A stretch of DNA of 36,711 nucleotides from a virus: positions 1 through 36,711 of IMG/VR virus record IMGVR_UViG_3300044639_000652, one strand, 5' to 3'. A program made the position numbers and the translations under genes. Shown here one piece after another: positions 1 through 19,786 of this stretch. Numbering within the stretch: position 1 is the stretch's first letter; the number at the start of each line of letters is the position of its first letter. The notes below the pieces were generated by a model. That model was not told the DNA's origin. It saw nothing but the letters and a program-made list of their open reading frames with translations, and did not search any database.

Positions 1-119
1 CATTGTAATGCATGAACATTATTTGGAATTCCAGCTTGCGACAAATCACACTCATATACGCCCTGATCTCTATATACAGTGGAGTCAGCTGGTATAACAG
101 TTAAACGTTTACTCTCCAT
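1..119 (-). CDS. Hypothetical phage protein, N-terminal part (truncated by window edge)
   Basis: An open frame reads leftward from ATG at 117-119 to the window edge, giving 39 residues that start MESKRLTVIPADSTVYRDQG and continue without a stop. The start is supported by a GAGGAT ribosome site just upstream and by an 11-base overlap with the end of the preceding gene, typical of this tightly coupled operon. The pattern (valine/isoleucine, PADSTVY, then a Gly-Ile-Pro plus His-Ala-Leu-Gln segment) resembles the N-terminus of small proteins often found beside phage tail-fiber genes, but I recall this only as a general likeness. A tail-associated or fiber-assembly role is inferred from position alone. 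Confidence 0.6.
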   Translation of the reverse strand, partial: MESKRLTVIPADSTVYRDQGVYECDLSQAGIPNNVHALQ

Positions 120-435
120 TTTTATCCTCTATAGTTAATATATCATTTGGTAATTGATCCAATCTATTTGTAGCCATTGCTAAGAATAGTTGTTGACTTG
201 CTTCTGTAGACTTTACCATTTCATTTCTGAAACTTTCTACGGCTGCACCAGTTTGACGTTGCATCCCTGAATTTTCAATCAGTAACATTGGCAACATTGC
301 AATAGAGCAATTCCACTCATCTACTCTATTGCCGGTATTAATATCATACCCTTCTATTTTCATGAACCAGGCACATTTTAATTTAACACATTCTTTTTTA
401 AGAAGTGGGCAAAAATTCTCACGTTCTAATTGCAT
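109..435 (-). CDS. Conserved hypothetical phage protein with clustered cysteines (108 aa)
   Basis: This 108-residue protein has four cysteines in its first half (C9, C16, C21, C43), spaced C-x6-C-x4-C-x21-C, followed by a segment rich in Met/Leu (residues 44-57) and a polar helical tail. The Cys pattern could bind a metal or an Fe-S cluster, but no known motif is matched exactly. It has no signal peptide. It sits at the end of the leftward late adhesin operon, 27 bases after the last tail-tip gene and overlapping the next gene by 11 bases. I recall similar proteins from other large phages, none with a function I can name. It may be a chaperone or assembly factor for the fibers; this is inference from position. 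Confidence 0.75.
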   Translation of the reverse strand: MQLERENFCPLLKKECVKLKCAWFMKIEGYDINTGNRVDEWNCSIAMLPMLLIENSGMQRQTGAAVESFRNEMVKSTEASQQLFLAMATNRLDQLPNDILTIEDKNGE

Positions 436-462
436 ATTATAATCCTCAGTTATGTACTTATT

Positions 463-990
463 TTAATTTTTGGTTGCCAAAATTAAATCTACGTACTTAA
501 TTGAAAAATTATAACTACCAGCTGTCCAATTGTAAGTTATTGCACCAGGAACTGAACTAGATGCTGGGTGAGTATGAGCAGAAGCAACTCCTGGTCCTGG
601 AGCACCACCTGCTCCGCTGAAATCGACCATTTGAGGAGTTGGTGCAGTGTAAAAAGATATACCCCCTCCTGAAACAAAATTATATGGGGTAGCTGCCGGC
701 CCGGGAGCCGGCTGCGTTGTAAACCAGTTAGGTTTACTATGTGTATGATCAGCCATAGTACTAGCGTCTATTATAGTAGGCGCTATAGTTTCTCCACCTG
801 CACTAGATACTGTTCCTCCCCAAGTACCTGAAGTAAACACCGAACTAAAATTAACAGACCCACCGCTACTAGCGGTACTATTTACTACCCTTAATGAATG
901 TTCATTATAATTAGACGTATCTTTTGTCCAACCAGTGCCGGCAGATGTGTTTTGAAAAATAGTTTTAGTACCTGATGCAAAAGCTGGCAT
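463..990 (-). CDS. Tail-tip/collar-like adhesin, paralogue 3 (175 aa)
   Basis: Last of three tandem paralogous proteins. The N-terminal block (about residues 10-55) carries the pattern aromatic-x-x-T-x-A-G-T-GWTKDTSNYNEHSLRVV, then a GGSVNFSSVF block, shared with the two genes upstream. Two His-x-His motifs follow, DHTHS in the middle and AHTHP nearer the C-terminus, and the protein ends with KYVDLILA. In T4 the short tail fiber gp12 uses His-x-His residues to bind metal along a trimeric receptor-binding tip; these motifs suggest the same kind of metal-stabilised knitted trimer. The region between the two motifs is Gly/Pro/Ala-rich and is the least conserved part. AGGAGAG lies just upstream of the ATG. 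A host-binding tip or baseplate protein is likely; which structure it decorates is not known. Confidence 0.75.
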   Translation of the reverse strand: MPAFASGTKTIFQNTSAGTGWTKDTSNYNEHSLRVVNSTASSGGSVNFSSVFTSGTWGGTVSSAGGETIAPTIIDASTMADHTHSKPNWFTTQPAPGPAATPYNFVSGGGISFYTAPTPQMVDFSGAGGAPGPGVASAHTHPASSSVPGAITYNWTAGSYNFSIKYVDLILATKN

Positions 991-991
991 G

Positions 992-1474
992 TTAATCTCT
1001 CCTAGCTAATATTATATCAACATATTTTACGGCTAGTGATATACTTGTTCCAGTAAATGTTGAATTAGCAGAATCAAGCAATAGTGGGTGAGAATGCGAC
1101 CCGCCTGAGCCACCACCGCTGGCGGTATACGGCTCTGAAATAGTTCTTGATAAATAACGATAAAATGGGTAATTATATGTTCCATTCCCACCAGCCGCAC
1201 TAGCGCCTACTGGATTGTGTTTTATATACGAATGAGTATGACTAGGAATATCATTAACAGTTAAGGTAGTACTACCGGTGGTGTTAGAAACTGAAACTGT
1301 CCCTGCGGGTGTTTGTGTACTACATACGGTAGTGAAATTAACCGAGCCGCCTGTACTAACTGATCCAGTAACTATACGTAATGCATAGTCATCGTATGAG
1401 GTGACTTTAGTCCACCCAAGTTGTGCTGTGGTTTGTTTAAATACAGTAGTTTGTCCTGAAGCTATTTCTGGCAT
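992..1474 (-). CDS. Tail-tip/collar-like adhesin, paralogue 2 (160 aa)
   Basis: Middle member of the three-gene tandem set. It shares the N-terminal block (QLGWTKVTSYDDYALRIV, then GGSVNFTTV), two His-x-His motifs (SHTHS and SHSHP) and the C-terminal end VKYVDIILA with its neighbours. The sequence between the His motifs is Gly/Ser/Tyr-rich and unrelated in detail to the paralogues, as expected for a receptor-contact region under diversifying selection. AAGGAAAA precedes the ATG. The gene follows the upstream paralogue with a 9-base gap and is followed by the next after one base, so all three should be translated from the same late message. The metal-binding trimeric tip is inferred from the gp12-like His motifs. 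Confidence 0.75.
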   Translation of the reverse strand: MPEIASGQTTVFKQTTAQLGWTKVTSYDDYALRIVTGSVSTGGSVNFTTVCSTQTPAGTVSVSNTTGSTTLTVNDIPSHTHSYIKHNPVGASAAGGNGTYNYPFYRYLSRTISEPYTASGGGSGGSHSHPLLLDSANSTFTGTSISLAVKYVDIILARRD

Positions 1475-1483
1475 TATTTTTCC

Positions 1484-2125
1484 TTAAACCGGGTATGAAG
1501 CAATAATCATATCTAGATATTTAACTGCCATATTCAAATTGATACCCGTGAATGTTCCACCGGGAGAGTTTGACACTGTATGTGAATGACCGGCCCCTGA
1601 TGCAGCGGTTGGCCCTAAAGTTGAGAAACTACTAGGTGAAAATGCTGGGTTTGTTGATACCCCACTCGCCGGGTTGCCTGGCTGCGCCATAAAACCTGTT
1701 TGCCCACCAGGCCCCCCTGTTTGTCCTTGACCTGCCACCCCTGCAACATATGTTGGCGAAGATACCGGCACACTTGGACCAGAATATGTTGCAGGGTTTG
1801 TATACGTATGACTATGACTAGGAAGTTGGGCAGCAGTTAATGCAGTGGTACCAGTTGTAGCTTGCAATAAACTACCACCTGGAAATGAACCTGCTACCGA
1901 TCTGCTGGCAAATGCAGTAGAAAAATTAACCGAGCCCCCAGTAGATACTGTACCACTTGTTATTCTTAGAGCATAATCATCATATGTAGTATCTTTAGTC
2001 CAGCCAGTTGGGGCAGCAGTTTGTGCAAACAACATTACAGCACCTTTATATTCATTGGGATTATCTCCGCTGACTAACGCACTGAAACCGCCAAACCCAC
2101 CATTGAACGCATTTATTCTAGACAT
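1484..2125 (-). CDS. Tail-tip/collar-like adhesin, paralogue 1 (213 aa)
   Basis: Largest of the three tandem paralogues. It has an extra N-terminal segment of about 25 residues (SRINAFNGGFGGFSALVSGD), then the shared block APTGWTKDTTYDDYALRIT and GGSVNFSTAF. His-x-His motifs SHSHT and GHSHT bracket a long Gly/Pro/Ser-rich stretch, and the protein ends with AVKYLDMIIA. The glycine-rich middle section (roughly residues 110-175) recalls the glycine-rich loops of phage adhesins that contact receptors. It starts three bases after the stop of the 910-residue fiber, with GGAT upstream. The extra N-terminus may anchor this paralogue to the fiber or baseplate while the others attach to it; that is inference. 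Confidence 0.75.
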   Translation of the reverse strand: MSRINAFNGGFGGFSALVSGDNPNEYKGAVMLFAQTAAPTGWTKDTTYDDYALRITSGTVSTGGSVNFSTAFASRSVAGSFPGGSLLQATTGTTALTAAQLPSHSHTYTNPATYSGPSVPVSSPTYVAGVAGQGQTGGPGGQTGFMAQPGNPASGVSTNPAFSPSSFSTLGPTAASGAGHSHTVSNSPGGTFTGINLNMAVKYLDMIIASYPV

Positions 2126-2128
2126 TGA

Positions 2129-4861
2129 TTATCCAAACGTTGCTGCTTGACCTAGTACTGTCCAGGCACTTGAAGTTCTAACTAAGCTGAAGTTTACAAC
2201 ATCAATTTTACTTGCAGTGCCAGTGGGCGCTATACCGTATAACCAATTAATAGTATTATTTGCACCCTCAATTTGAATGTTTGCCGTAGCAGTCGGCATA
2301 TAAGGAGTAGCACCCTGAACTATTATTAAACTCACAATAGTGGTAGTGTTTGCTGTAACTGTGACGTTAGTGAAGTTTGGCGTAAAGTTAGCAGATGGAG
2401 TGGTATGGTAGAATGTAGGTCCATTTGATACGTTATGCACTACAATGCCAGTAGCACTAGTGATTGTGCTAAACGATTCTTGCGAAATACTAGATACTGT
2501 TAGATATTTTGTATATAAATTATTTGTCAATGCTGCATTATTTGAATAGAATGTACCTGATGTCGCATTTGCTACTAATGAAGCGTTAGCATATTCTTGC
2601 ACATTCCCAGTCAAGGCATTAACCATATTAATATAGTAATTACCTGTACTAGCAGTACTTACTGCGCTATAATCTGACACGTTTGCATAAGCAACGTTTA
2701 AATTAGCAACACGTGTTGTACTTGTGACCGTAAACGGTGCAGTTCCTGTTGCTACGTTACTTACTAAGAAACTAGCAGTTATATTACCAGCTGTTGCAAA
2801 ATTACCTGATGTAGTAGTCCCAGTAACACCTAAACTTGCTAATGTACCGACTGATGTAATATTACCTTGAATTGCGGTAGTTAATGTACCAGTTAAGTAT
2901 GTGCCACTAATTAAGTTAGCACCACTTATCCTTGATAAAGTGCCACTCATCGTGATATTGCCATTAGCTGTAGTAGTTACATAATTAGCACTTATTAAGT
3001 TAGGACCGCTTATCTGTGATAGTGATCCACTCATTGTAACATTGGCATTAGCAGCCAATGTTATAGATGCCATTGTACCTACACTTGTAATATTACCTTG
3101 AGCCGCAGTTGTTAATGTACCAGTTAAGTAAGTAGCACTTACTAAATTACCACCACTTAATGAGTTACTTGAACCCATTAATGTATTAATTAATGTACCG
3201 AGACTTGTAATGTTTGGTTGAGCCGCAGTTGTTAATGTACCGGTTAGATATGTGCCACTAATTAAGTTAGCACCACTTATCCTTGATAAAGTGCCACTCA
3301 TCGTGATATTGCCATTAGCTGTAGTAGTTACATAATTAGCACTTACTAAATTAGGACCACTTATTTGAGATAATGATCCACTCATTGTAATATTGGCATT
3401 AGCCGCATGCGTTACGGTTGCTAATGTACCAACTGATGTAATATTTGGTTGCGCCGCAGTTGTTAATGTACCTGTTAAGTAAGTAGCACTTACTAAGTTG
3501 CCACCTGTAAAGCTATTTGCACTTCCTAGTGTTGTATTGATTAATGTTCCAACTGATGTAATATTTGGTTGCGCCGCAGTTGTTAGCGTACCTGTAAAAT
3601 AATTTGATGTAACTAAGTTACCTAAATTAGCATTACCACTTGAGATATTAGCAGTAACTGTCAAACTTGCTAATGTACCAACTGAAGTGATATTACTTTG
3701 TATTGCATTTACTATGTTACCGGCAAAATTTGCATAGTTCGCATTTCCAGTAGTTGCAGTAATACCGGTTAACTGACTACCATTGCCTATAAAATAATTA
3801 GCACGGATATTACCAAAACTATTAAATGTCACTACCTCACTTGTTACTGATATATTACTACCAAAAGCAAATTCAGCATTTGAATTGTCCCAGCCCATAA
3901 ATGCATCAACAACACCAGTAGTGTAGTAATGCAATATCGAACCGCGATCTTTCCCGTCATTACTTGTTAACGCTGCTCCATTTATCCCACCGCCTAGTTC
4001 AATGATTGGATCTTCAACTCTAAATGTTTCTACATTAATATATGTAGTATTACCACCTACTGTAAAGTTACCAGTAACCGTAGCATCACCGCTGACAGTT
4101 AGAGCAGACAATGAACCTACTGAAGTTATGTTTGGTTGAGCCGCTGTAGTTAATGTACCTGTTAAGTATGTAGCACTTACTAAATTAGCACCACTAATCC
4201 TTGATAAAGCACCGCTCATTGTAACATTGGCATTTGCAGATATAGTATGTGTGCCGCTAGTTAAAGTAGTTAATGTACCGACACTTGTAATGTTTGGCTG
4301 TGCATTTGTATAGACAGTGCCGGCAACTAGTGCATTAGCTACTTGTCCAGTGATATTACTTGATGTTATATTTGATATATAACCACCGTCACCAATAAAA
4401 AATCCAGTACCGCTAGTGCCTACATTTAAATTTCCATATATACCAACATCACCTGAAACACTATTGTATTTGGTTGTTATAGTAATAGTTCCGCTACTAT
4501 CTTGTATATTCGCTGCCTTAAGTCCAGTACCGGTCGCTGTAATTAATCCAGAAACAGTTAAACTGTTTAATTGTCCTACACTTGTAATATTAGGTTGTGC
4601 ATTAGTATAGACAGTACCTGCAATTAATGCATTGGCTACCTGAGTACTCCAAGTTAAACCACCAGATCCGTTGGTTGTTAAAACTCCGCCGCTTGAGCCT
4701 CCGGTAATACGCACAGTTGCATTAGAACCTAAACTTACATTACTAGCACCGATAAAATTGACATTACCGTTATTGGTTATATTTGCAGTTACCAATACAT
4801 TTGCAAATGTGTAATTTGCACTAGTATTCACTCCAAAGGGTTCTAAATAGGTTACTGACAT
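2129..4861 (-). CDS. Repeat-rich long tail fiber protein (910 aa)
   Basis: A 910-residue protein almost wholly built of beta-type repeats rich in Thr, Asn, Gly and Ser. The clearest unit, NITSVGTL with a preceding TLTTAAQP or VYTNAQP, occurs nine times with small changes, mixed with NVTMSG-x-LS-x-ISG-x-NL units. This is the look of a trimeric beta-helical fiber shaft. A non-repeat insert of about 98 residues (TFRVEDPIIELGGG through FGNIRAN) is shared almost unchanged with the 1174-residue fiber, as is a C-terminal domain of about 115 residues (FYHTTPSANFTPNFTNV, then SLIIVQGATPYMPTA). A late-type octamer and a TAAGGAAT ribosome site lie upstream. It probably forms a long tail fiber; phage virion location is inferred from context and repeat type. 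Confidence 0.8.
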   Translation of the reverse strand: MSVTYLEPFGVNTSANYTFANVLVTANITNNGNVNFIGASNVSLGSNATVRITGGSSGGVLTTNGSGGLTWSTQVANALIAGTVYTNAQPNITSVGQLNSLTVSGLITATGTGLKAANIQDSSGTITITTKYNSVSGDVGIYGNLNVGTSGTGFFIGDGGYISNITSSNITGQVANALVAGTVYTNAQPNITSVGTLTTLTSGTHTISANANVTMSGALSRISGANLVSATYLTGTLTTAAQPNITSVGSLSALTVSGDATVTGNFTVGGNTTYINVETFRVEDPIIELGGGINGAALTSNDGKDRGSILHYYTTGVVDAFMGWDNSNAEFAFGSNISVTSEVVTFNSFGNIRANYFIGNGSQLTGITATTGNANYANFAGNIVNAIQSNITSVGTLASLTVTANISSGNANLGNLVTSNYFTGTLTTAAQPNITSVGTLINTTLGSANSFTGGNLVSATYLTGTLTTAAQPNITSVGTLATVTHAANANITMSGSLSQISGPNLVSANYVTTTANGNITMSGTLSRISGANLISGTYLTGTLTTAAQPNITSLGTLINTLMGSSNSLSGGNLVSATYLTGTLTTAAQGNITSVGTMASITLAANANVTMSGSLSQISGPNLISANYVTTTANGNITMSGTLSRISGANLISGTYLTGTLTTAIQGNITSVGTLASLGVTGTTTSGNFATAGNITASFLVSNVATGTAPFTVTSTTRVANLNVAYANVSDYSAVSTASTGNYYINMVNALTGNVQEYANASLVANATSGTFYSNNAALTNNLYTKYLTVSSISQESFSTITSATGIVVHNVSNGPTFYHTTPSANFTPNFTNVTVTANTTTIVSLIIVQGATPYMPTATANIQIEGANNTINWLYGIAPTGTASKIDVVNFSLVRTSSAWTVLGQAATFG
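2898..2994. repeat. 97-nt perfect direct repeat, copy 1 (partner 3249-3345)
   Basis: These 97 bases match 3249-3345 without a mismatch by direct reading. The offset is 351 bases, exactly 117 codons, so recombination between the copies would remove or add one in-frame block of the fiber shaft. Confidence 0.9.
3249..3345. repeat. 97-nt perfect direct repeat, copy 2 (partner 2898-2994)
   Basis: Second copy of the in-frame repeat in the 910-residue fiber gene. Sequence outside the copy on either side remains similar but no longer identical, as expected from older duplication with local homogenisation. Confidence 0.9.
3801..4096. repeat. Shared fiber insert module, copy A (partner 8966-9261)
   Basis: This roughly 296-base segment encodes the non-repeat insert around residues VEDPIIELGGG and HYYTTGVVDAFMGWDNSN. 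The 1174-residue fiber gene carries the same module at 8966-9261 with scattered, mostly synonymous changes. Its near-identity compared with the diverged shafts suggests strong constraint or gene conversion between the two fibers. Confidence 0.85.
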
Positions 4862-4881
4862 AAATTTTTATTCCTTATTAC

Positions 4882-4889
4882 TATTTAGT
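4882..4889 (-). promoter_or_regulatory. Late-type promoter octamer ACTAAATA
   Basis: On the minus strand ACTAAATA matches the core of the T4 late promoter TATAAATA. It lies about 20 bases upstream of the 910-residue fiber start, with a TAAGGAAT ribosome site in between. The predicted start of transcription leaves a short leader. It would provide a second late entry point inside the adhesin operon. Confidence 0.55.
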
Positions 4890-4895
4890 GATATT

Positions 4896-7241
4896 TTAAG
4901 CAGTTGGTTTGCCGTAAGTTGTGGCCGACCAGCCTGGTCTAGCATCATAACCTACATAAAGACCAGTTTGGGCCAAACCTGTTGCAATCTGAACCGGACT
5001 GCTTCTGCGAACAGTGTCACCTGTTCCTAATTGACCATATGTATTTTCACCCCATGCATATAAAGTGCCATTAATATCGGTTGCAATTGTATAGTCACTC
5101 CCACCGTATACTCGTCCCCACTGAGTATCCGTACCTATTTGTATAGGACTTGATGTGTAACTATATGTAGCTACTGCAGAGGATGCAGTTGGTATTTGTA
5201 CAGGACTACTCATTTGCGGAACAGTTACACTAGGAGAAGTACCGAAATTGTAACTACCGTTATGTCCCCATGAATATAGTTGTCCGCCTTTGATTCCGTG
5301 CGCGGGTTGAGTACTGGCCGGGCTTGGGTGAAGGCCCGTGCTGGCCCCGGCCATTAAGATAGTCCAAGAACCTAAACCACTTTGAACTAGGACCGGGCTA
5401 CTTCTATACCAATTAGCAGTATTACCTCCAGGCCAAGCTAAATCGCCCCATTGACCGTAAATAGACGTACCCCAAGCAAATACTCTGCCATCATTTGTTT
5501 GACCAAGGGTAAACCCTTCACCTCCACTAATTAATGACCAAGTACTAGTACCTATTGCTGTAGGACTACTGCGATTTATGCTCGTCGCTGTATTAGAACC
5601 TACTTGTCCCCAGGTATTAAGCCCCCAAGCAAATAATCTACCTATACTAGTAATCCCCAACATATGATAGCCACCGGAACTTACTTGACTAAAACTACTG
5701 ACGGCTAGAACGGCTACCATACTGGATCTATTAGTAGTTGTATTATCTCCTATGGTACCGTACTGATTAAATCCCCATGCAAATAATTTATCATTACTTC
5801 TCACCACGTGAAAAGTTCTATCAGCACTTGATTCAACTAATTTGTATCCAGTAACAGCACCTACTTGAAATAGGTTACTTCTTCTAACCGTAGTTCCATC
5901 ACCATTTCCAAATCCCCATCCGCCGGTAATCCATAGTGCTCCGTTAGTATCCAATTGCAAGGCACCACTTACTTGAATCCAGCTACCTGGAAGTTGTGTG
6001 GGTGTGCTACGATTTTGAGTGTCACCTGTACCTAAAGTGCCATTTATGTTATATCCCCATTTGTAGAGTCTACCGTCGGTTTTAATAGCAGCGGCGTTAC
6101 CTTCCGGCATACCTCTATATAATATAGCCCAATCAGTATCTGTCCCTATTTGAGTCGGACTAGCCCTACGAGTTGTATCGCCTACTCCTAACTCTCCTCG
6201 TCTATTTTCTCCCCACGCCCACATTGTACCGTCACTCCGTAGAGCATGTACACTGGTTGAGGAGGATACACCTACACCAGCTGGTGTGCTCCTTATACCC
6301 ATAGTTCTTGCCATACTAGTCCATGACAATGCAGCCGGGGAAAAATTAGGTGTACCAATCTGTCCAACGTTATTTTGACCCCAACCCCATAATGTACCGT
6401 CATTTTTGACTCCAAACCCATTAGTAAAAGTTGTGGCGCCATGGCTCCACAGGTCAAGACCCACTTGAACCGGAGAACTACGATTTAGTGTGTCACCTAA
6501 ACCTAGTTGCCCGGTATTATTATAGCCCCAGCCCCATAGAGTACTATCAGTTTTTTGTCCTAACACACTATAACCGTTGACTGCTACAAAAGGCATTTGA
6601 TTTAGGGAAAAGACAGGAAGTTGTACTGGGGAACTACGAGCAATTACGTCATTCAAACCAAGTTGACCATAGAAGTTATTCCCCCATGTATAAATCAAAG
6701 CTGAACCTGATCGCTGTGCAAATACATATTGTCTGGTTATCCGCCCGGCCGGCACTACATCTTCCCATAAATCTCCTCCTACTTGTACAGGAGAACTATA
6801 ATATAAAGTGGTCCTACTATTCAATCCAAGATATCCATCTGAGTTCTCTCCCCAGGCCCATAATGTTCTATCAGATTTAACTCCAAAAGCCATTTCATAT
6901 CCCACTCTTACTCTATACCAGCTATCTGTACCTACTTTTACTGGACTACTACGATCTACAGTTGTTCCACTACCTAATTGCCCGGCATTATTCCGTCCCC
7001 AGGTCCATAAACTACCATCGCTTTGTATTCCACTTGAAGAATAACCATAGTTACTAAACATTAACCAGCTAACGCCTGATGATAATAGTGAGGGAGAACT
7101 ACGATTTATTGTATCACCCAAACCTAGTTGGCCATATGTGTTAAGTCCAGTAGTATATAAATAATAATTAATAGCAGGGGGAGGAGTTGGTCCACTGTTT
7201 GTAAAATAAGTTGCAGTACCGATTACTGTATATATTGGCAT
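4896..7241 (-). CDS. RCC1-repeat (double beta-propeller) tail protein (781 aa)
   Basis: The protein is a chain of RCC1 (regulator of chromosome condensation) repeats: units of about 50 residues with patterns such as WGxNxxGQLGxGDTxxRSSPVQVG. I count 14 units, some decayed (for example GGWGFGNGDGTTVRRSN), which equals two seven-bladed propellers. A short N-terminal segment with a PTPPP stretch precedes them and a short tail ends in TTYGKPTA. In cells RCC1 repeats form protein- or ligand-binding discs; in a phage between two fibers a receptor-binding or spacer role is likely. The ATG follows the stop of the 1174-residue fiber by one base with no clear ribosome site, so translation is probably coupled. 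The domain call is firm; the virion role is inferred. Confidence 0.88.
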   Translation of the reverse strand: MPIYTVIGTATYFTNSGPTPPPAINYYLYTTGLNTYGQLGLGDTINRSSPSLLSSGVSWLMFSNYGYSSSGIQSDGSLWTWGRNNAGQLGSGTTVDRSSPVKVGTDSWYRVRVGYEMAFGVKSDRTLWAWGENSDGYLGLNSRTTLYYSSPVQVGGDLWEDVVPAGRITRQYVFAQRSGSALIYTWGNNFYGQLGLNDVIARSSPVQLPVFSLNQMPFVAVNGYSVLGQKTDSTLWGWGYNNTGQLGLGDTLNRSSPVQVGLDLWSHGATTFTNGFGVKNDGTLWGWGQNNVGQIGTPNFSPAALSWTSMARTMGIRSTPAGVGVSSSTSVHALRSDGTMWAWGENRRGELGVGDTTRRASPTQIGTDTDWAILYRGMPEGNAAAIKTDGRLYKWGYNINGTLGTGDTQNRSTPTQLPGSWIQVSGALQLDTNGALWITGGWGFGNGDGTTVRRSNLFQVGAVTGYKLVESSADRTFHVVRSNDKLFAWGFNQYGTIGDNTTTNRSSMVAVLAVSSFSQVSSGGYHMLGITSIGRLFAWGLNTWGQVGSNTATSINRSSPTAIGTSTWSLISGGEGFTLGQTNDGRVFAWGTSIYGQWGDLAWPGGNTANWYRSSPVLVQSGLGSWTILMAGASTGLHPSPASTQPAHGIKGGQLYSWGHNGSYNFGTSPSVTVPQMSSPVQIPTASSAVATYSYTSSPIQIGTDTQWGRVYGGSDYTIATDINGTLYAWGENTYGQLGTGDTVRRSSPVQIATGLAQTGLYVGYDARPGWSATTYGKPTA

Positions 7242-7242
7242 A

Positions 7243-10200
7243 TTAGCTAAACGACCCCATTACTCCAGTTACTGACCAAGCTGAACTTACTCTAAATAAT
7301 GCAAATGTTACGGTGTTTACTACGCTAGCAGTTCCGGTTGGTGCCGCGCCACCAGACCATTTAATAGTCTGGGCCACACCTGCAATTTGTACTGCTGTTG
7401 GTAAATATGGAGTACCACCTTGAACAATTATTAAAGATATCACGATTACTCTATTATCAGTCGTAGGCACGTTTGTGAAGTTAGCTGTAAAATTAGCAGA
7501 GACACTAGTATGATAAAATACTGCGCCTGTACTAAAATCATGGTCTACTGTACCTGTCGCTGATGTTTTTGTATTTAGTACCTCAATTGATTGTTGTATA
7601 GAAGTTTGTCCAGATATTATTAAACTTGATAAATTACCAGTTGATGTGATATTTGGTTGAGCCGCAGTAGTTAGTGTGCCTGTTAGATACGTACCACTGA
7701 TTAAGTTAGCACCACTTATTTGAGATAGAGTACCGCTCATCAAGATATTGCCATTAGCAGCAGTAGTTACAAAATTAGCACTTACTAAGTTAGCACCTGA
7801 TAACTGTGATAGTGAGCCACTCATTGAGATATTGGCATTTAAAGATACAGTATGTGTACCGCTGGTTAAAGTTGTTAGAGTACCAACTGATGTAATATTT
7901 GGTTGAGCACCTGTTGTTAGTGTACCTGTAAAATAGTTAGCACTTACTAAATTAGCACCAGATATACTTCCACCGCTGCCACTACCAATAATAGCATTTC
8001 CTGATGTAATATTTCCGGTTACTGTTAAACTTGCTAATGTGCCAACTGATGTGATGTTTGGCTGTGCATTTGTATATACTGTACCAGCTACAAGTGCGTT
8101 ACCTACTTGACCACTTACATTGCCACCTGTAAGTCCTGATAGATAACTACCATTGCCAACAAAGAATCCAGTACCACTAGTACCAGCTGTTATGTTTCCG
8201 TATATACCAACTGCACCTGACACACTCCCATAACCAGTAACTATAGTAATAGTTCCACTGCTATCTTGTATGTTTGATGTTTTAATCCCGGTACCTGTGT
8301 TAGTAATTAATCCAGTAACTGTTAAACTACCTAGCGACCCAACACTGGTAATATTGGGTTGGGCACCTGTTGTTAGTGTCCCGCCTAGATAAGTAGCACT
8401 TGCTAGGTTACCTAAACTAGCATTTCCACTAGTGATATTACCTGTTACCGTTAAACTCGCTAATGTACCAACTGTTGTGATGTTTGGTTGAACTGCGGTT
8501 GTTAATGTGCCGGTTAGATAATTAGCAGTCACATAATTCAATCCGCTAATATTTCCACCTGTACCTGATCCAGTAATTAAATTGCCAGTCATAACTACGT
8601 TACCGGTAGTTTTGTCAAAGGTAAATGCCGAATTGCCACCAAAGCTACCGTTATCATTAAATTGAACTTGTGTGTTGCTTCCGCCAGGTGTTCCGCCTCC
8701 GCCTCCGGATTGTGCTATCCAACTTAGTGTACCTGACCCGTCAGTTTTTAATACATACCCGTCTGTACCACCTGATATATGTAAGTTTGCAACTGAGCCT
8801 AACGTCACGTTGGCAGTAGTAGTAAAATCAATAACACCTGTTGCATTGCTTACGGTCAATCCCGACAAAGAACCAACTGATGTAATGTTTGGTTGTGCAT
8901 TAGTGGTAACAGTACCTGCGGTTGTTGCTGATCCAGCAGTAGTAGATGTACCTAAGAAATTATTAGCACGGATATTACCAAAACTATTGAATGTTACCAC
9001 CTCACTGGATACCGATACATTGCTACCAAATGCAAATTCACCATTAGAGTTATCCCAACCCATGAATGCATCAACAACACCAGTTGTGTAGTAATGTAGT
9101 AATGTACCGCGGTCTTTCCCGTCATTACTTATTAACGCCGCGCCATTTACCCCGCCGCCTAGTTCAATTATTGGATCCTCGACTCTAAATGTTTCTACAT
9201 TAATGTAAGTGGTGTTACCACCTACAGTAAAGTTACCAGTGACAGTGGCATCTCCGCTTACACTTAGACTTACCAATGTACCAAGACTTGTAATATTTGG
9301 TTGTGCATTAGTGTAAACTGTACCAGCTACTAATGCATTTCCTACTTGACCACTCACATTGCCACCGGCTACTGAGTTAGCAATATTTGCATAATGACTT
9401 TGAATAGCACTAGTAACATTACCGTTTACATTACTACCGGTAATATATGTTAAGGTTGCACCATTTCCAATGAAGTAATTTGCAGAGACATTACCGGTAT
9501 ACGTTGGTAGATAATCAGCAACATTGCTATTTCCATAACTACTACCACCTCCACCTGATTGTGCTACCCAGCTTAATGTACCTGACCCATCTGTACTTAA
9601 CACATAACCTGACGTACCACCTGTTATATGTACATTACCTACAGCACCCAATGCTACATTACTTGTTCCTGTTAAATTAAATAACCCTGTACCAGTAAGT
9701 CCTGCCAATGTGCCAACACTTGTAATATTTGGTTGAGCATTAGTTGTTACGGTGCCTGCTGTTGTAGCACTACCTGCTGTACCGGCACTTGTCGCATACG
9801 TTGCATTTGCTACTATACCCGATACATTAGCACCTGCAATGTTAGAGATGAATATACCATTACCACTAAAATATGTAGCTGATGCTAAGTTACCTAAGCT
9901 AGCATTGCCTGATGTGATATTAGCAGTAACAGTTAAACTTGCTAATGTACCAACTGATGTGATGTTTGGTTGAGCATTTGTGTAAACTGTACCGGCTACT
10001 AATGCATTGCCTACTTGCCCATTTACATTTCCACCTGTTACATAAGTTAATGTACTTCCATTACCGATAAAGTAGTTGGCACTTACATTACCAGTATATA
10101 CAGGAAGATAATCAGCAACATTACTATTTCCATAACTACTACCACCTCCACCTGATTGTGCTACCCAGCTTAATGTACCTGACCCATCTGTACTTAATAC

Positions 10201-10767
10201 ATAACCTGATGTTCCGCCTGCTATATGTAAATTGCTTATTGCGCCTAGGGTGACATTTGCAGTAGTTGTAAAATTAACAACACCTGTTGCATTACTTACT
10301 GTTAGTCCTGATAAAGAACCAACACTAGTGATATTTGGTTGTGCGGCTGTTGTAACAGTACCGGCAGTTGATACTGTAATTCCGGTCAATAATGAGCCAT
10401 TGCCGCTGAAATAGTTTGCTGTCGCTAAATTACCTAAGTTAGAGTTATTTGACGTAACATTTCCACCAACTACTAAACTGTTTGTTGATTTATTGAATGT
10501 GAAAGCGCCCACGCCACCAAAATTTCCACCGTCGTTAAACTGAACATAGGTATCAATGCCCCCGGGTGATCCAGCCCCGCCCCCGCCACCTGCGGCCCAT
10601 GCTAAGTTGCCAGCACCGTCTGTTTGTAGATACTGTCCAGAACTTCCGCCAGTAATAACCACATTGGCAACATCTCCTAGGTTGGCAGTGTTGGTTACAT
10701 TAATGTTAGCAAATGTGAAAGTAGCGGTGGTATTGACACTATTCGGCTGTAATTTGGTTAGTGACAT
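7243..10767 (-). CDS. Repeat-rich long tail fiber protein (1174 aa)
   Basis: First gene of the leftward adhesin operon. The N-terminus (SLTKLQPNSVNTTATFTFAN) resembles that of the 910-residue fiber. The shaft holds ten NITSVGTL-type units plus recurring GGTSGYVLSTDGSGTLSWV and Gly-rich SGGGGSSYGNSNVADYLP blocks, consistent with a trimeric beta-structured fiber. It shares the VEDPIIELGGG insert and a C-terminal domain of about 115 residues (FYHTSVSANFTANFTNV, then SLIIVQGGTPYLPTA) with the 910-residue paralogue. TAAGGAT and a late-type octamer lie upstream of the ATG. It is probably the long tail fiber proximal or distal part, with the RCC1 protein made immediately after it. The virion role rests on repeat type and context. 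Confidence 0.8.
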   Translation of the reverse strand: MSLTKLQPNSVNTTATFTFANINVTNTANLGDVANVVITGGSSGQYLQTDGAGNLAWAAGGGGGAGSPGGIDTYVQFNDGGNFGGVGAFTFNKSTNSLVVGGNVTSNNSNLGNLATANYFSGNGSLLTGITVSTAGTVTTAAQPNITSVGSLSGLTVSNATGVVNFTTTANVTLGAISNLHIAGGTSGYVLSTDGSGTLSWVAQSGGGGSSYGNSNVADYLPVYTGNVSANYFIGNGSTLTYVTGGNVNGQVGNALVAGTVYTNAQPNITSVGTLASLTVTANITSGNASLGNLASATYFSGNGIFISNIAGANVSGIVANATYATSAGTAGSATTAGTVTTNAQPNITSVGTLAGLTGTGLFNLTGTSNVALGAVGNVHITGGTSGYVLSTDGSGTLSWVAQSGGGGSSYGNSNVADYLPTYTGNVSANYFIGNGATLTYITGSNVNGNVTSAIQSHYANIANSVAGGNVSGQVGNALVAGTVYTNAQPNITSLGTLVSLSVSGDATVTGNFTVGGNTTYINVETFRVEDPIIELGGGVNGAALISNDGKDRGTLLHYYTTGVVDAFMGWDNSNGEFAFGSNVSVSSEVVTFNSFGNIRANNFLGTSTTAGSATTAGTVTTNAQPNITSVGSLSGLTVSNATGVIDFTTTANVTLGSVANLHISGGTDGYVLKTDGSGTLSWIAQSGGGGGTPGGSNTQVQFNDNGSFGGNSAFTFDKTTGNVVMTGNLITGSGTGGNISGLNYVTANYLTGTLTTAVQPNITTVGTLASLTVTGNITSGNASLGNLASATYLGGTLTTGAQPNITSVGSLGSLTVTGLITNTGTGIKTSNIQDSSGTITIVTGYGSVSGAVGIYGNITAGTSGTGFFVGNGSYLSGLTGGNVSGQVGNALVAGTVYTNAQPNITSVGTLASLTVTGNITSGNAIIGSGSGGSISGANLVSANYFTGTLTTGAQPNITSVGTLTTLTSGTHTVSLNANISMSGSLSQLSGANLVSANFVTTAANGNILMSGTLSQISGANLISGTYLTGTLTTAAQPNITSTGNLSSLIISGQTSIQQSIEVLNTKTSATGTVDHDFSTGAVFYHTSVSANFTANFTNVPTTDNRVIVISLIIVQGGTPYLPTAVQIAGVAQTIKWSGGAAPTGTASVVNTVTFALFRVSSAWSVTGVMGSFS
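8966..9261. repeat. Shared fiber insert module, copy B (partner 3801-4096)
   Basis: Encodes the same non-repeat insert as 3801-4096 in the other large fiber, with only about ten residue changes over some 98 codons. Both copies begin next to a codon run for FGNIRAN and end near GDATVTGNFTVGGNTTYIN. Confidence 0.85.
9527..9600. repeat. 74-nt perfect direct repeat, copy 1 (partner 10124-10197)
   Basis: These 74 bases are identical to 10124-10197. The offset is 597 bases (199 codons), in frame, within the 1174-residue fiber gene. It encodes the Gly-rich block and the start of the STDGSGTLSWV block. Confidence 0.88.
10124..10197. repeat. 74-nt perfect direct repeat, copy 2 (partner 9527-9600)
   Basis: Second copy of the in-frame repeat in the 1174-residue fiber. 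A third, more diverged version of the same block is visible near 8690-8780. Confidence 0.88.
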
Positions 10768-10788
10768 TCAAAAATCCTTAATACTTAG

Positions 10789-10796
10789 TATTTAGC
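10789..10796 (-). promoter_or_regulatory. Late-type promoter octamer GCTAAATA for the adhesin operon
   Basis: GCTAAATA followed by CTAAG reads leftward, about 21 bases before the start of the 1174-residue fiber, with TAAGGAT as ribosome site between. It shares the TAAATA core of T4 late promoters. It lies only nine bases from the -35 box of the rightward early promoter, so this 72-base gap holds back-to-back late and early promoters. Confidence 0.6.
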
Positions 10797-10804
10797 TTTC
10801 TAGG

Positions 10805-10833
10805 TTGACAATAAATCCAGTCTGTAGTATACT
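10805..10833 (+). promoter_or_regulatory. Early-type promoter for SprT-like gene
   Basis: TTGACA at 10805-10810 and TATACT at 10828-10833 with a 17-base spacer that begins ATAAATCC. Same architecture as four other promoters in the window. Counting from the -10 box, transcription should start at about 10840, the A of the ATG, so the message may have no leader. Confidence 0.8.
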
Positions 10834-10839
10834 TACAGT

Positions 10840-11295
10840 ATGGAAATAAAAACTCTCTCTTACAGTAAGAACCGCAAAGAAATCATACAAAAGTGTGCAG
10901 AATTCTTTGCGGACGAACTTAATTTGAAAAATAGTACTTATAAAGTATTCATTTGTACTGACCCAACTCTCATGCGGGAACGACGGAACAACGGTGTAGC
11001 ATGTAAGACGGGGGATAAGGAAATTACTATTGCGGTAGATAGTCGGTTACCTATCAAAAAATTGTTCTATACTCTTGCCCATGAAATGGTTCATGCAAAG
11101 CAATTTGCTCGAGGGCAGTACCGTAGCGAAAAAGCCCGAAATGGTAAATATCGCAGATACTGGTGCGGAAAACGGGTAGTTGCTGATTATGTGGATCAGC
11201 CCTGGGAAATTGAGGCTTTTAGTCGTGAAAGTATTTTAGTAGAGCGGTTATTAGCTGTCTTGACCAAAAATATGAAAAAGGCGCAAATGAGTTAA
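10840..11295 (+). CDS. SprT-like zinc metalloprotease (151 aa)
   Basis: The active-site helix TLAHEMVHAKQFARG holds the HExxH zinc motif (H81, E82, H85). A likely third ligand lies in PWEIEAFSRE near residue 127, and a CG-type strand precedes the helix. Length and layout fit small SprT-like/WLM-type proteases. Family members process DNA-protein crosslinks (Spartan/SprT in cells); in a phage the substrate is unknown. There is no signal peptide, so it acts in the cytoplasm. The start is the first ATG after a strong early promoter; no ribosome site precedes it and the transcript may begin on the ATG itself. It is followed by the MoxR and VWA genes, each with its own copy of the same promoter. 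Confidence 0.85.
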   Translation: MEIKTLSYSKNRKEIIQKCAEFFADELNLKNSTYKVFICTDPTLMRERRNNGVACKTGDKEITIAVDSRLPIKKLFYTLAHEMVHAKQFARGQYRSEKARNGKYRRYWCGKRVVADYVDQPWEIEAFSRESILVERLLAVLTKNMKKAQMS

Positions 11296-11303
11296 AGTAG
11301 CAC

Positions 11304-11332
11304 TTGACAATAAATCCATTCTGATATATACT
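11304..11332 (+). promoter_or_regulatory. Early-type promoter for MoxR-type ATPase gene
   Basis: TTGACA at 11304-11309, 17-base spacer beginning ATAAATCC, TATACT at 11327-11332. The first 14 bases are identical to the promoter at 10805. The leader is about 39 bases and ends with AGGAG (11367-11371) before the ATG. Confidence 0.85.
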
Positions 11333-11377
11333 ATCATCTGTTTTCAACAAGCCATCCAACTAACATAGGAGTCATCA

Positions 11378-12481
11378 ATGGCATCACAAGTAAGTGACAA
11401 TCACACTATCACTAGTGTTCAAACCCGCAAAGCAATGCTTAGTGCATTCAAAACTCAACGACCCGTTTTTCTCTGGGGCCCTCCCGGTATCGGTAAGTCC
11501 GACGTTGTTTCAGAGATTACTGAGGAACTCGGTGGTCTTATGATTGATTTGCGTATGGCGCAAATGGAACCAACTGACATTCGTGGTATCCCTTTCTTCA
11601 ATCGTGAGAATGGTAAAATGGATTGGGCTCCCCCAGTTGATTTGCCCGATCAGGAACTCGCAAGCAAGTATCCTGTGGTTGTTCTATTCCTAGATGAAAT
11701 GAACTCAGCCCCGCCCGCAGTACAAGCGGCAGGTTATCAATTGGTGTTGAATCGCCGCGTTGGTAAATATTACTTGCCCGATAATGTTGTTATTGTGGCT
11801 GCAGGTAATCGTGACAGTGACAAAGGTGTTACTTATCGTATGCCAATGCCCCTTGCTAATCGTTTCATTCACTTGGAAATGCGAGCCGACTTTTCTTCAT
11901 GGCAGACATGGGCTGTGAAAAACAACATTCACAAAGACGTTGTTGGTTACTTGTCATTCGCAAAACAAGATATGTACGACTTTGATAGTAAATCAAGTAG
12001 CCGTGCATTTGCGACACCTCGCAGTTGGTGTTTCGTTAGTGACTTGTTGAATGACGAGGCTAACATGGATACCGATACGCAATTCAACTTGATTGCAGGT
12101 GCAGTTGGTGAGGGTCTTGCCGTTAAGTTCTCAGCACACCGCAAAATTTCTGGCAGGATGCCCGAACCAGAAGATATTCTGTCAGGTAAAGTCAAGGACT
12201 TGGCTGTCAAGGAAATCAGTGCTATGTATGCATTGACTATTGCTATGTGTTACGAATTGAAAGATGTAACACAAAACAAAAAAGTGGATAGCAAAAAGTT
12301 CCATGATATGACTCAAAACTTCTTTGATTATATGATGAACAACTTTGAAACTGAGTTGGTTGTTATGGGTGCAAAAATTGCATTGAAAACATACGAACTG
12401 CCTATCGAACCTAGTCAGTTGAAAAACTTTGATGAATTTCACAAGAAGTACGGCAAGTACATTGTGGAAGCAGGTAACTGA
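11378..12481 (+). CDS. MoxR-family AAA+ ATPase (367 aa)
   Basis: Walker A GPPGIGKS at residues 34-41, Walker B VVLFLDE at 101-107, sensor-1 Asn in AAGNR (N144) and an Arg finger in NRFIHLE (R162). The 60s segment MAQMEPTDIRGIP and the APPAVQAAGYQLVLNRRVG stretch are typical of MoxR/RavA-like ATPases, which remodel or activate partner proteins and usually pair with a VWA-domain protein. The next gene is exactly such a partner. It should form a hexameric ring in the cytoplasm. AGGAG precedes the ATG. The gene ends at a hairpin terminator, so it is a separate transcription unit from its partner. Codons ending in C for Phe and Asn and TTG for Leu are common, suggesting high expression. Confidence 0.9.
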   Translation: MASQVSDNHTITSVQTRKAMLSAFKTQRPVFLWGPPGIGKSDVVSEITEELGGLMIDLRMAQMEPTDIRGIPFFNRENGKMDWAPPVDLPDQELASKYPVVVLFLDEMNSAPPAVQAAGYQLVLNRRVGKYYLPDNVVIVAAGNRDSDKGVTYRMPMPLANRFIHLEMRADFSSWQTWAVKNNIHKDVVGYLSFAKQDMYDFDSKSSSRAFATPRSWCFVSDLLNDEANMDTDTQFNLIAGAVGEGLAVKFSAHRKISGRMPEPEDILSGKVKDLAVKEISAMYALTIAMCYELKDVTQNKKVDSKKFHDMTQNFFDYMMNNFETELVVMGAKIALKTYELPIEPSQLKNFDEFHKKYGKYIVEAGN

Positions 12482-12482
12482 T

Positions 12483-12510
12483 AGAAAGGGCTTAGGCCCT
12501 TTCTACTTTT
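12483..12510 (+). terminator. Rho-independent terminator after MoxR gene
   Basis: AGAAAGGGC pairs with GCCCTTTCT in a perfect 9-bp stem with loop TTAG, followed by ACTTTTG. It begins two bases after the stop codon and ends just before the next early promoter. Confidence 0.85.
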
Positions 12511-12513
12511 GTA

Positions 12514-12542
12514 TTGACATTAAATATATTGTGTGATACAAT
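12514..12542 (+). promoter_or_regulatory. Early-type promoter for VWA/metallopeptidase-like gene
   Basis: TTGACA at 12514-12519, 17-base spacer beginning TTAAAT, TACAAT at 12537-12542. It directly follows the terminator of the MoxR gene. A short leader with AAAAAGGA precedes the ATG at 12568. Confidence 0.8.
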
Positions 12543-12567
12543 ACACTATTGTTAAAAAGGAATCAAA

Positions 12568-13836
12568 ATGTCAGAAGTAATTGCCCCAACTAAAAAACGT
12601 AAACGTAGCAAAAAATTTGAAAATCTTGTAGGACCTACTGATCCTAAAGTTGACAATCAAGCCCGTGAGCGACTAGTTGCCGCACGTATTGGATTGTTGT
12701 TGCGTCATAGTTTTTTTGGCAATCTTGCTACTCGCATGAAATTGGTTAACGCTGATGAATGGTGTAGTACTGCGGCAACTGATGGATTGAAATTCTATTA
12801 CAATAGCCGTTTCATTATGATGTTGAAACCTAAAGAAGTTGAGTTCTTAGTTGGTCATGAAGTATTGCACGTGGTGTATGACCATATGGGTCGTAGAAAT
12901 GATCGTGATCCTCAAATTTGGAACATCGCTGATGACTATGCAGTTAACGCTGATTTGAAACGTCACAAAGTAGGCCAATTCATTACTACCGTTCCTTGCT
13001 TATACGAATCAAAATATGATGGTAAGCCAGCAGAGGAAATCTATGATGACCTGATGAAGAATGTGCAAAAAATCTCTATTGATGATTTGGTTGACCAAAT
13101 GATTGATGATCACATGGATGGTGAGGGAGAAGAAGGTCAAGATGGCGACAAAGAAGGAAAAGGTCGTCCGAAAATGTCACCAGAAGAACGTGAACGTGCC
13201 CGTCAAGAAATGAAACAAGCTATCATTCAAGCGGCACAAAGTGCAGAGGCAGGTACTCTTCCTAAAGGTGTTGAACGTCTTATCAAAGAGGCTGTTGACC
13301 CTGTAATGCCCTGGCGTGAACTGATTCAGACTAACTTGACAAGTGCGATTCGCAATGACTATTCTTGGATGCGCCCCTCACGTAGAAGTTGGCACATGGA
13401 TGCTATCATGCCCGGTATGACTCCCGGCGAAGAAATTGATGTTGTCGTTTCACTTGATATGTCAGGTAGTATCAGCGACAAACAAGCCAGAGCATTCTTG
13501 GGTGAGATTGCTGGTATGATGAATAGTTTCGATGGTTACAAGGTGCATGTATTCTGTTTTGATACTGATACATACAATCCTCAAGACTTTGATAGTGAGA
13601 ACATGGATAGTATTGAAGAATATGAACCCCAAGGTGGCGGTGGCACTGACTTTGATTGTATCTTTGATTACTTGAAGGAAAACGCTATTGAACCTAAACG
13701 ATTAATTGTGTTTACTGATGGCTATCCTTGTGGTTCTTGGGGTGACCCTGACTATTGTGATACAACGTGGATCATTCACGGTGATACAAATCCTAATCCC
13801 CCATTCGGTACTTACGCTATCTATGATGAAAAGTGA
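12568..13836 (+). CDS. DUF2201-type metallopeptidase-like / VWA domain protein (422 aa)
   Basis: N-terminal half: a basic start (KKRKRSKK) and a putative metallopeptidase domain with LVGHEVLHVVYDH (HExxH at 97-101). The middle, about residues 180-225, is highly charged and Gly-rich. The C-terminal half is a VWA-like domain with the metal-ion-dependent adhesion site DMSGS at 297-301, a T in GGGGTDF and FTDG near the end. This two-part structure matches DUF2201 proteins, which are usually encoded next to MoxR-type ATPases, as here. The likely role is a substrate-binding or protease partner of the ATPase in the cytoplasm; the target is unknown. AAAAAGGA lies upstream of the ATG. Confidence 0.88.
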   Translation: MSEVIAPTKKRKRSKKFENLVGPTDPKVDNQARERLVAARIGLLLRHSFFGNLATRMKLVNADEWCSTAATDGLKFYYNSRFIMMLKPKEVEFLVGHEVLHVVYDHMGRRNDRDPQIWNIADDYAVNADLKRHKVGQFITTVPCLYESKYDGKPAEEIYDDLMKNVQKISIDDLVDQMIDDHMDGEGEEGQDGDKEGKGRPKMSPEERERARQEMKQAIIQAAQSAEAGTLPKGVERLIKEAVDPVMPWRELIQTNLTSAIRNDYSWMRPSRRSWHMDAIMPGMTPGEEIDVVVSLDMSGSISDKQARAFLGEIAGMMNSFDGYKVHVFCFDTDTYNPQDFDSENMDSIEEYEPQGGGGTDFDCIFDYLKENAIEPKRLIVFTDGYPCGSWGDPDYCDTTWIIHGDTNPNPPFGTYAIYDEK

Positions 13837-13846
13837 AAGGTAGTGT

Positions 13847-14170
13847 ATGAAACAATATCTTGCAATGTGGGATATGTACGGGCTTGAATTTATATTTGAT
13901 ACCAGTAAGTGGGAGAAAGAATACATGTGGAGTATTCTTTCTGAAAAACCCAAGCCAACTACACCTAGTATTCAAATGATGATACTACGAGCAAAAGCAA
14001 ATAGCCAACGATGTTATGAAATTTATTCATTCAATGCAGATGATGATTTGACTGAGGAATCAATTAAGTTAGCATTTGAAAGTTCCCCTCAGGGCATAGT
14101 AGATTTTATTCGTGCTAATGGTTCTAAAATTTACAGCGACCGTGCAGAAAAGAAAGCAATAATTATATGA
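13847..14170 (+). CDS. Hypothetical protein (107 aa)
   Basis: I do not recognise this protein. It is 107 residues, starts MKQYLAMWDMYGLEFIFD, is soluble-looking with mixed helix and strand character and several aromatic residues, and has no membrane segment or known motif. AAGGTAGTGT precedes the ATG, ten bases after the VWA gene stops. It overlaps the next gene by ATGA, so the two are translationally coupled. It is probably read from the VWA promoter, since no other promoter is visible; a link to the MoxR/VWA pair is possible but unproven. Confidence 0.75.
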   Translation: MKQYLAMWDMYGLEFIFDTSKWEKEYMWSILSEKPKPTTPSIQMMILRAKANSQRCYEIYSFNADDDLTEESIKLAFESSPQGIVDFIRANGSKIYSDRAEKKAIII

Positions 14171-14577
14171 TGTATATTGGCACTAGTTTGGGTGGGTGCT
14201 TACTTAGCCTTATGAACAACGAAGTGTCCGAGGATGAGGTTATGGTAATCATAACCCGCACCGATGCACCTGACTATGAAAAATATATTAATGTAGTAAC
14301 GTCATACCATTTACAAGGTAATCCTTTTGCCACTAATCCTGAACGGTATGAATTAAACGATTATAAATTAGAAGATGTACTTACACTCGCCGAGAGATTA
14401 TGGTATTATGGCAAGATTCATCAACCTAGAAGTTTTGTTGAATCTACCGGTTATCGACACCCATTTCAGAATGGTGACAAACTTTGGTTTGAAGTAGTGC
14501 CTACTCTTGACAATTCTACTCCAGCAGTTGTAGATGCATATGAAAAATACAAGATGCTGAATATATTGACTAAGTAA
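14167..14577 (+). CDS. Conserved hypothetical phage protein (136 aa)
   Basis: A 136-residue protein starting MMYIGTSLGGCLLSL, with a charged segment SEDEVMVIITRTDAPDYEKY and a C-terminal half containing ERLWYYGKIHQPRSF and HPFQNGDKLWFEVVPT. I recall related proteins in other large phages without a known function. It has no HExxH, Walker or Cys-cluster motif. It overlaps the preceding gene by ATGA and is followed after 15 bases by a 40-residue membrane protein gene. Cytoplasmic location is inferred from composition. Confidence 0.75.
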   Translation: MMYIGTSLGGCLLSLMNNEVSEDEVMVIITRTDAPDYEKYINVVTSYHLQGNPFATNPERYELNDYKLEDVLTLAERLWYYGKIHQPRSFVESTGYRHPFQNGDKLWFEVVPTLDNSTPAVVDAYEKYKMLNILTK

Positions 14578-14592
14578 ATTTAAGGAGAAAGT

Positions 14593-14715
14593 ATGGAAAC
14601 TCTTTTTAATGTACTAGGTTACGGTATACTTTTTGGTGTCTTGTTTGGAATATTTTATATATTTGTTAGACTATTGAGTACTGCCTTTGAAGCACTAACA
14701 CACCATGACGATTGA
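14593..14715 (+). CDS. Small single-pass membrane protein (40 aa)
   Basis: METLFNVLGYGILFGVLFGI begins a 40-residue frame that continues through IFVRLL to a polar end HHDD and stops at TGA 14713-14715. Residues 5-28 form one hydrophobic helix containing glycines. A very good ribosome site, TAAGGAGA, lies five bases upstream of the ATG, which makes this short gene credible. Its stop is followed by AATGG, the start of the next gene. The role is unknown; small phage membrane proteins can act in lysis control, superinfection exclusion or membrane remodelling. Confidence 0.65.
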   Translation: METLFNVLGYGILFGVLFGIFYIFVRLLSTAFEALTHHDD

Positions 14716-14717
14716 TA

Positions 14718-14972
14718 ATGGAAGAAATAAATTTAAACATTTGGTTTAAAGACCGAGAGTTAAAAACTGTCCCGCCACATTTTATCAAGGGACAAACTCA
14801 ACTAACTCAAGAAGGATATTTTTGGGCAAAGTCAAAACTATCAGGGCGTTTTGCTGTCAGTGAAGATGAAAGCAAGATAGAAGATTTTTTATTTGAAACA
14901 TCACAACGTATCTATTTTGAAGAGCCACATGAAGCTATGATATACGAATTGCGTTGGTCAGGAAGTAAATAA
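14718..14972 (+). CDS. Hypothetical protein (84 aa)
   Basis: 84 residues starting MEEINLNIWFKDRELKTVPP, with a middle segment FAVSEDESKIEDFLFET and an end IYELRWSGSK. I chose ATG 14718, two bases after the stop of the 40-residue gene (TGATAATGG), because that gives stop-restart coupling; a TTG six bases earlier is possible but has no better ribosome site. It has no recognisable domain or membrane segment. It ends a small run of unknown genes before a late-type promoter element. Confidence 0.65.
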   Translation: MEEINLNIWFKDRELKTVPPHFIKGQTQLTQEGYFWAKSKLSGRFAVSEDESKIEDFLFETSQRIYFEEPHEAMIYELRWSGSK

Positions 14973-14993
14973 ATTTCTATCTTACAAATTCAT

Positions 14994-15001
14994 ATTAAAT
15001 A
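14994..15001 (+). promoter_or_regulatory. Late-type promoter octamer ATTAAATA
   Basis: ATTAAATA followed by ACTGTAT. The same TAAATAACTGTAT string is found before the spanin-like gene at 18138. A 19-base leader with TAAGGAGA then leads to the ATG at 15026. Confidence 0.45.
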
Positions 15002-15025
15002 ACTGTATCCTTAAGGAGATATATT

Positions 15026-15709: not shown

Positions 15710-15716
15710 TAAGATA

Positions 15717-18133: not shown

Positions 18134-18137
18134 CTGT

Positions 18138-19705: not shown

Positions 19706-19726
19706 ATTTGTTCCTTAATATACATA

Positions 19727-19734
19727 TATTTATG
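19727..19734 (-). promoter_or_regulatory. Late-type promoter octamer CATAAATA (endonuclease)
   Basis: CATAAATA on the minus strand, 21 bases before the endonuclease ATG, with TTAAGGAAC between. Together with the rightward octamer at 19759 it forms a divergent late promoter pair in an 81-base gap. Confidence 0.5.
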
Positions 19735-19758
19735 TTTGGGTAGATATAATTCTTTAGC

Positions 19759-19766
19759 GATAAATA
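19759..19766 (+). promoter_or_regulatory. Late-type promoter octamer GATAAATA
   Basis: GATAAATA followed by TATTATAATGGGATAG and the ATG at 19787. The predicted leader is about 15 bases with a weak GGGAT ribosome site. Confidence 0.5.
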
Positions 19767-19786
19767 TATTATAATGGGATAGTAAC

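Follow-up and report, generated by a model that had tools for sequence, protein, structure and literature searches.

The RCC1-repeat gene described here lies between two fibre-like genes of a T4-type phage fragment and encodes a 14-bladed protein that most likely folds as two seven-bladed discs. We consider it probable that this protein is a virion tail adhesin, with both discs on or beside the fibres and binding a ligand on the host surface; that it is present in this virion, attaches to the fibres and binds a receptor is what we infer. RCC1 proteins are already known in phages, also as virion proteins. The new part is the variation of copy number in whole discs together with cassette exchange, and within the open-access literature we found no papers on RCC1 disc number or its variation.

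Gene neighbourhood and repeats of the RCC1 protein

The window, i.e., the whole stretch of viral DNA analyzed (36,711 bases), represents part of the genome of a T4-type phage. Judged by the terminase, its closest named relatives are jumbo phages, the large terminase sharing 49.5% identity with that of the Pseudomonas jumbo phage PA5oct and 44% with that of the Cronobacter jumbo phage GAP32. No phage matches to positions 1–20000 were found by megablast. The window contains a single RCC1 gene, separated by 1 nt from the 1174-aa fibre-like gene and by 34 nt from the 910-aa one, all on the same strand; three small genes on that strand, one of a tail family, follow downstream of the fibre-like genes. 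The RCC1 gene is thus encoded with fibre genes, as is looked for in a tail fibre or receptor-binding protein. The genes of this run are as follows:

4896..7241, minus strand: RCC1-repeat protein, 781 aa, 14 blades, ATG start
7243..10767, minus strand: 1174-aa fibre-like protein upstream of the RCC1 gene, with weak similarity to a tail-fibre family (phrog_6942, E=6.3e-6)
2129..4861, minus strand: 910-aa fibre-like protein downstream of the RCC1 gene, with weak similarity to the same tail-fibre family (phrog_6942, E=2.3e-4)
1484..2125, minus strand: 213-aa protein belonging to this gene run, identity 88% in L212 and 97% in L211
992..1474, minus strand: 160-aa tail-family protein (phrog_5795, E=1.1e-4), identity 96% in L212

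The 213-, 160- and 175-aa proteins (window 463–2125, minus strand) are tandem paralogues with 32–50% identity in parts. Both fibre starts are preceded, at a distance of ~20 nt, by the sequence CTAAATA, but this motif is not enriched. The RCC1 gene is richer in GC (43.5%) than the window as a whole (38.3%).

The RCC1 assignment is far beyond chance. Pfam RCC1 (PF00415) matched in 13 stretches with E=5.8e-85 (280 bits against a curated value of 21.7), and the RCC1-like domain PF25390 matched with E=4.5e-101 (339 bits against a curated 150). Using an HMM of 50 columns, we located 14 blade starts at aa 28, 78, 127, 183, 235, 284, 340, 392, 436/437, 486, 536, 587, 655 and 727. The ORF, Pfam and the blade HMM therefore agree with the earlier, sequence-only reading of this DNA, which had described an RCC1 protein with 14 repeats between two tail fibres. 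That reading had also called units 6, 9, 12 and 13 decayed, and the same four score lowest with the blade HMM, the remaining ten scoring 42–67 bits. The regions of the protein are listed below:

7161..7241, minus strand: N-terminal tail, aa 1–27, net charge 0, low model confidence at aa 1–18
6069..7160, minus strand: blades 1–7 (aa 28–391), predicted N-terminal disc, blade 6 region modelled poorly
4899..6068, minus strand: blades 8–14 (aa 392–781), predicted C-terminal disc, structural boundary at ~aa 370–392
6225..6392, minus strand: weak blade 6, aa 284–339, 25.6 bits, pLDDT < 50 at aa 297–328
5787..5936, minus strand: weak blade 9, aa 436–485, 28.5 bits
5280..5483, minus strand: weak blade 12, aa 587–654, 9.7 bits
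5064..5279, minus strand: weak blade 13, aa 655–726, 16.6 bits

Neither a signal-peptide-like nor a T7-anchor sequence was found in aa 1–27. Eukaryotic RCC1, the Ran exchange factor on chromatin, has a basic N-terminal tail for histone and DNA binding, whereas the uncharged tail of the window protein has no such character. Searches with Pfam and PHROGs found neither PF03906 nor another tail domain that could act as a virion anchor.

Recent internal duplication, which had been suggested from the nearly consensus appearance of some blades, is not supported, given the low identity between blades (mean 37% and maximum 57% at the amino acid level, and at most 73% for DNA). Blades i and i+7 share 41% identity, barely above the 36% of other pairs between the halves, and recent copying of blades or of discs was rejected. 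Judged from the sequence, the consensus look is that of the family. Because the blades are so diverged, a collapse of the assembly is also unlikely.

Predicted disc structure and blade number

To model the protein, we supplied AlphaFold with the window sequence and 59 in-phase 14-blade segments of relatives, and obtained a pLDDT of 79.7 and a pTM of 0.52 (an earlier model from 11 homologues, with a pLDDT of 55, was discarded). HERC1, HERC2, UVR8 and RPGR all have seven-bladed discs onto which VIA-align superimposed model residues ~370–780 (Z 28–30 over 310–345 residues); residues 26–309 matched most of another disc, 7w5z_BP, with Z 24.4. The RCC1-like domains of HERC1 and HERC2, as well as UVR8, are solved seven-bladed discs and share their fold with the C-terminal half; they are, however, eukaryotic cellular proteins with only ~20–24% identity to the window protein. 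Structure prediction, which had been named as a check on the idea of two seven-bladed propellers, thus returned a C-terminal half that matches closed seven-bladed discs and an N-terminal half that does so only in part. Around blade 6 the model of the first disc is uncertain, and the two-disc model is of moderate quality overall. Its low pTM would fit two discs of undefined relative orientation, although it does not prove them.

Blade numbers among viral relatives point to the same architecture. An exact multiple of seven blades was found in 91 of 98 non-redundant complete viral RCC1 ORFs, namely 7 (61 ORFs), 14 (13), 21 (3), 28 (6), and 35, 42, 49 and 56 (2 each). Among the 34 ORFs with more than seven blades, 30 are multiples of seven, the exceptions having 8, 8, 22 and 40; the 14 blades of the window protein conform to the multiple of seven expected of a two-disc propeller. 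A first-pass HMM, constructed from a smaller set of blades, gave 28/32 multiples of seven (binomial p 4e-20, uncorrected for relatedness), and all but one of its higher outliers became multiples of seven under the broader HMM. These counts are not independent, because the sequences are related and were gathered by searches seeded with the window protein. Bacterial relatives analyzed by the identical HMM procedure had 13, 14, 15, 16 and other numbers of blades; therefore, the counting method does not impose multiples of seven.

It is unlikely that the 14 blades instead close into a single large ring or run on as a continuous spiral. Such a shape would agree with the pTM and with the spacing of the blades, since a search for a longer spacer where blade 7 meets blade 8 (52 residues), or at the seventh positions in relatives, found none. 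Neither a ring nor a spiral, however, demands that blade counts concentrate at multiples of seven, as they do up to 56, and both are at odds with a close relative that has exactly seven blades and with the fit of the second half of the model to closed discs. The two propellers proposed earlier are therefore upheld by the quantised blade numbers, by the halved number in that relative and by the C-terminal half of the model, with the N-terminal disc being less certain.

The most variable positions of the blade are WGxNxxG and two residues of GxxHT (columns 14, 16–17 and 47–48 of 50), which we take to correspond to the interaction-face motif GWRHT of UVR8.

Turnover of the RCC1 gene among related phages

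The relative with seven blades is contig L212 (IMGVR_UViG_3300021963_004528), whose DNA is ~95% identical to the window over positions 1–3661. Its small proteins are 88–100% identical to those of the window, and its second fibre is 96% identical over the last 508 residues. At the identical site, between the same fibres, L212 encodes an RCC1 protein of 393 aa that shares only 33% identity with the window protein. The 3' edge of the divergence is sharp and falls at the RCC1 stop codon, the RCC1 genes themselves being without DNA similarity, and near-identity restarts ~30 nt before the start codon of the downstream 910-aa fibre gene. On the 5' side, the divergence also takes in the end of the 1174-aa fibre gene, with 57% DNA identity over ~400 columns. 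Based on these edges, the fibre end and the RCC1 gene diverge jointly, whereas the downstream region is almost unchanged.

A second group of relatives, assigned to the T4 type by the portal detected on contigs L047 and L077, has flanking proteins that are 88–98% identical and RCC1 proteins that are only ~50% identical. Its members carry 21 (L046, L096), 35 (L074, L076), 42 (L058) and 49 (L069) blades. Comparison of blade number between related phages, which had been proposed along with the first description, thus revealed whole steps of seven, and the patterns in L212 and in this clade indicate that disc number shifts by whole units between near relatives.

Among more distant relatives, no recognisable RCC1 repeat was detected in any of the 17 larger contigs that share 77–84% terminase identity with the window, one of them 524 kb long and several of them fragments. 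As these more distant terminase relatives lack RCC1, the gene is accessory, and it has the behaviour of a part that was acquired and can be exchanged. Terminase relatives with an adjacent ATPase gene were considered as the ancestral locus and rejected, as they have unrelated genes at the fibre position. In these distant relatives other genes lie beside the ATPase gene (L256:5726-12325, L257:2750-8318, L255:6752-11966), among which a pair of large ORFs, starting with MNYIGIS.GFHDAA and MLRDVFYYGKKPN, recurs in several contigs.

Probable function of phage RCC1 discs

According to the mechanism we propose, the two consecutive RCC1 discs would lie on the tail fibres of the flanking genes, or next to them, and would attach to a ligand on the surface of the host. 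Selection on host recognition would then swap the RCC1 gene, along with the 3' end of the 1174-aa fibre gene, as a cassette, and whole discs would be gained or lost because stable ring closure needs multiples of seven blades. The idea of a host-recognition head had been raised from the position of the gene, and the evidence for it is indirect: the site between fibres, the turnover of the cassette against near-identical flanks, and fibres of the T7 type that are tipped with RCC1. Both the cassette turnover and these RCC1 heads favour a tail adhesin.

The RCC1-tipped fibres belong to the T7-like Pseudomonas phages PollyC and SeaP3, in which RCC1 is the distal part of a fibre at the usual fibre position of the genome, so that RCC1 occurs within a fibre locus as in the window. 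These fibres consist of a T7 N-terminus (PF03906, E ~7e-5, just below the Pfam cut-off), an Ala-rich stalk and an RCC1 head of about one disc, in contrast to the separate two-disc window protein, which lacks the T7 anchor. Littlefix is a further example, with a protein annotated as 'tail fiber protein'. Kyanoviridae cyanophages, a phage group different from that of the window, have stand-alone RCC1 genes whose annotations read BNR repeat protein or 'regulator of chromosome condensation': BUCT-ZZ01 has one with 14 blades, like the window, at 34% identity, and S-SRM01 has genes with 6, 7 and 7 blades. In both cyanophages and in the Clostridioides phage LIBA6276, RCC1 genes adjoin annotated fibre or baseplate genes, and tail-fibre PHROGs are the most frequent matches among 72 genes directly upstream of viral RCC1 genes. 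By a simple heuristic, 4/98 viral RCC1 proteins look secreted as against 56/72 bacterial ones, which is expected if the viral proteins are assembled into particles in the cytoplasm. The papers PMC8557907 (S-SRM01) and PMC12206443 (Saccharibacteria pili) do not cover the function of phage RCC1.

The statement that RCC1 is not a standard phage tail part proved partly true. PHROGs contains three RCC1 phage families under DNA/RNA metabolism and one as 'tail protein', and RCC1-like proteins were identified by mass spectrometry as virion components of the jumbo phages GAP32 and phAPEC6 (PMC5259590, PMC7247149). The Rak2-type proteins of this kind, annotated for 'DNA condensation' (GAP32 gp1, 121Q, PBECO4, phAPEC6), are mostly 370–400 aa long and occur in tandem arrays separate from fibre genes, unlike the single gene of the window, and their blades are too divergent for counting by HMM.

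These virion proteins raise the alternative of a particle protein with a job other than receptor binding, such as packing or ordering the DNA in the head, which we regard as improbable for the window protein. The mass-spectrometric detection, which includes several Table 1 entries for phAPEC6, would agree with this role, as would the slightly basic pI of 9.0. Ordering of head DNA was suggested for phAPEC6 because eukaryotic RCC1 binds chromatin (PMC7247149), so that the published support is the family name alone; the window protein lacks a basic tail and has a net charge of only +5 in 781 aa. Its gene lies between fibres and is swapped among near-identical phages, unlike core head genes, and elsewhere RCC1 is fused to T7-type fibres. 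The DNA-ordering idea may still hold for the Rak2-type arrays, which are located away from fibres. A cell-surface or intracellular accessory protein, involved in host takeover or superinfection control and present in the fibre cluster by chance, would fit the sporadic distribution of RCC1 and the secreted appearance of many of its bacterial relatives. This, too, is rather unlikely, as a signal-peptide-like start is missing from the window protein and from 94/98 viral homologues, and the gene lies 1 nt from a fibre stop codon in an association with fibre genes that recurs.

Several points nevertheless speak against a tail adhesin: the window protein has no recognisable fibre-anchor domain, the virion RCC1 array of the Rak2 type lies away from fibres and has a proposed role in DNA packing (PMC7247149), the predicted structure has a pTM of only 0.52 and an uncertain first disc, and the more distant terminase relatives are without RCC1.

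A broader and more tentative proposal, which we hold to be possible but somewhat doubtful, is that T4-type phages possess 'poly-propeller' adhesins whose valency or specificity would be adjusted as whole discs are gained or lost (complete ORFs span 1 to at least 8) and as cassettes are replaced between phages that are otherwise almost identical, forming a modular host-range system based on RCC1 discs. Annotations of phage RCC1 proteins refer to DNA or chromosomes, and in one paper a role in packing head DNA was proposed from the name alone; genome context, fibre fusions and cassette turnover point toward host recognition instead. If this is true, RCC1 discs constitute a repeatedly used class of phage adhesins, and disc number is a discrete, easily read trait that can be tested directly against host range.

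Very large RCC1 ORFs were also observed. Complete ones of 5117, 3105, 3286 and 4384 aa occur among L272/L273 (contig G037), L268/L269 (G036) and L270 (G031), and one further frame in this set, of at least 8626 aa, runs off its contig. These candidate phage contigs yielded no match to a T4 portal or a terminase. In addition, a sulfotransferase-like ORF (start ...FLSGIPRSGSTVLAAILNQ) is repeatedly located between or adjoining viral RCC1 genes, at L009:11439, L056:8290, L068:4160, L070:7473, L090:3992, L098:8249, L103:8364, L109:4124 and L115:8272, and as gp345 of S-SRM01.
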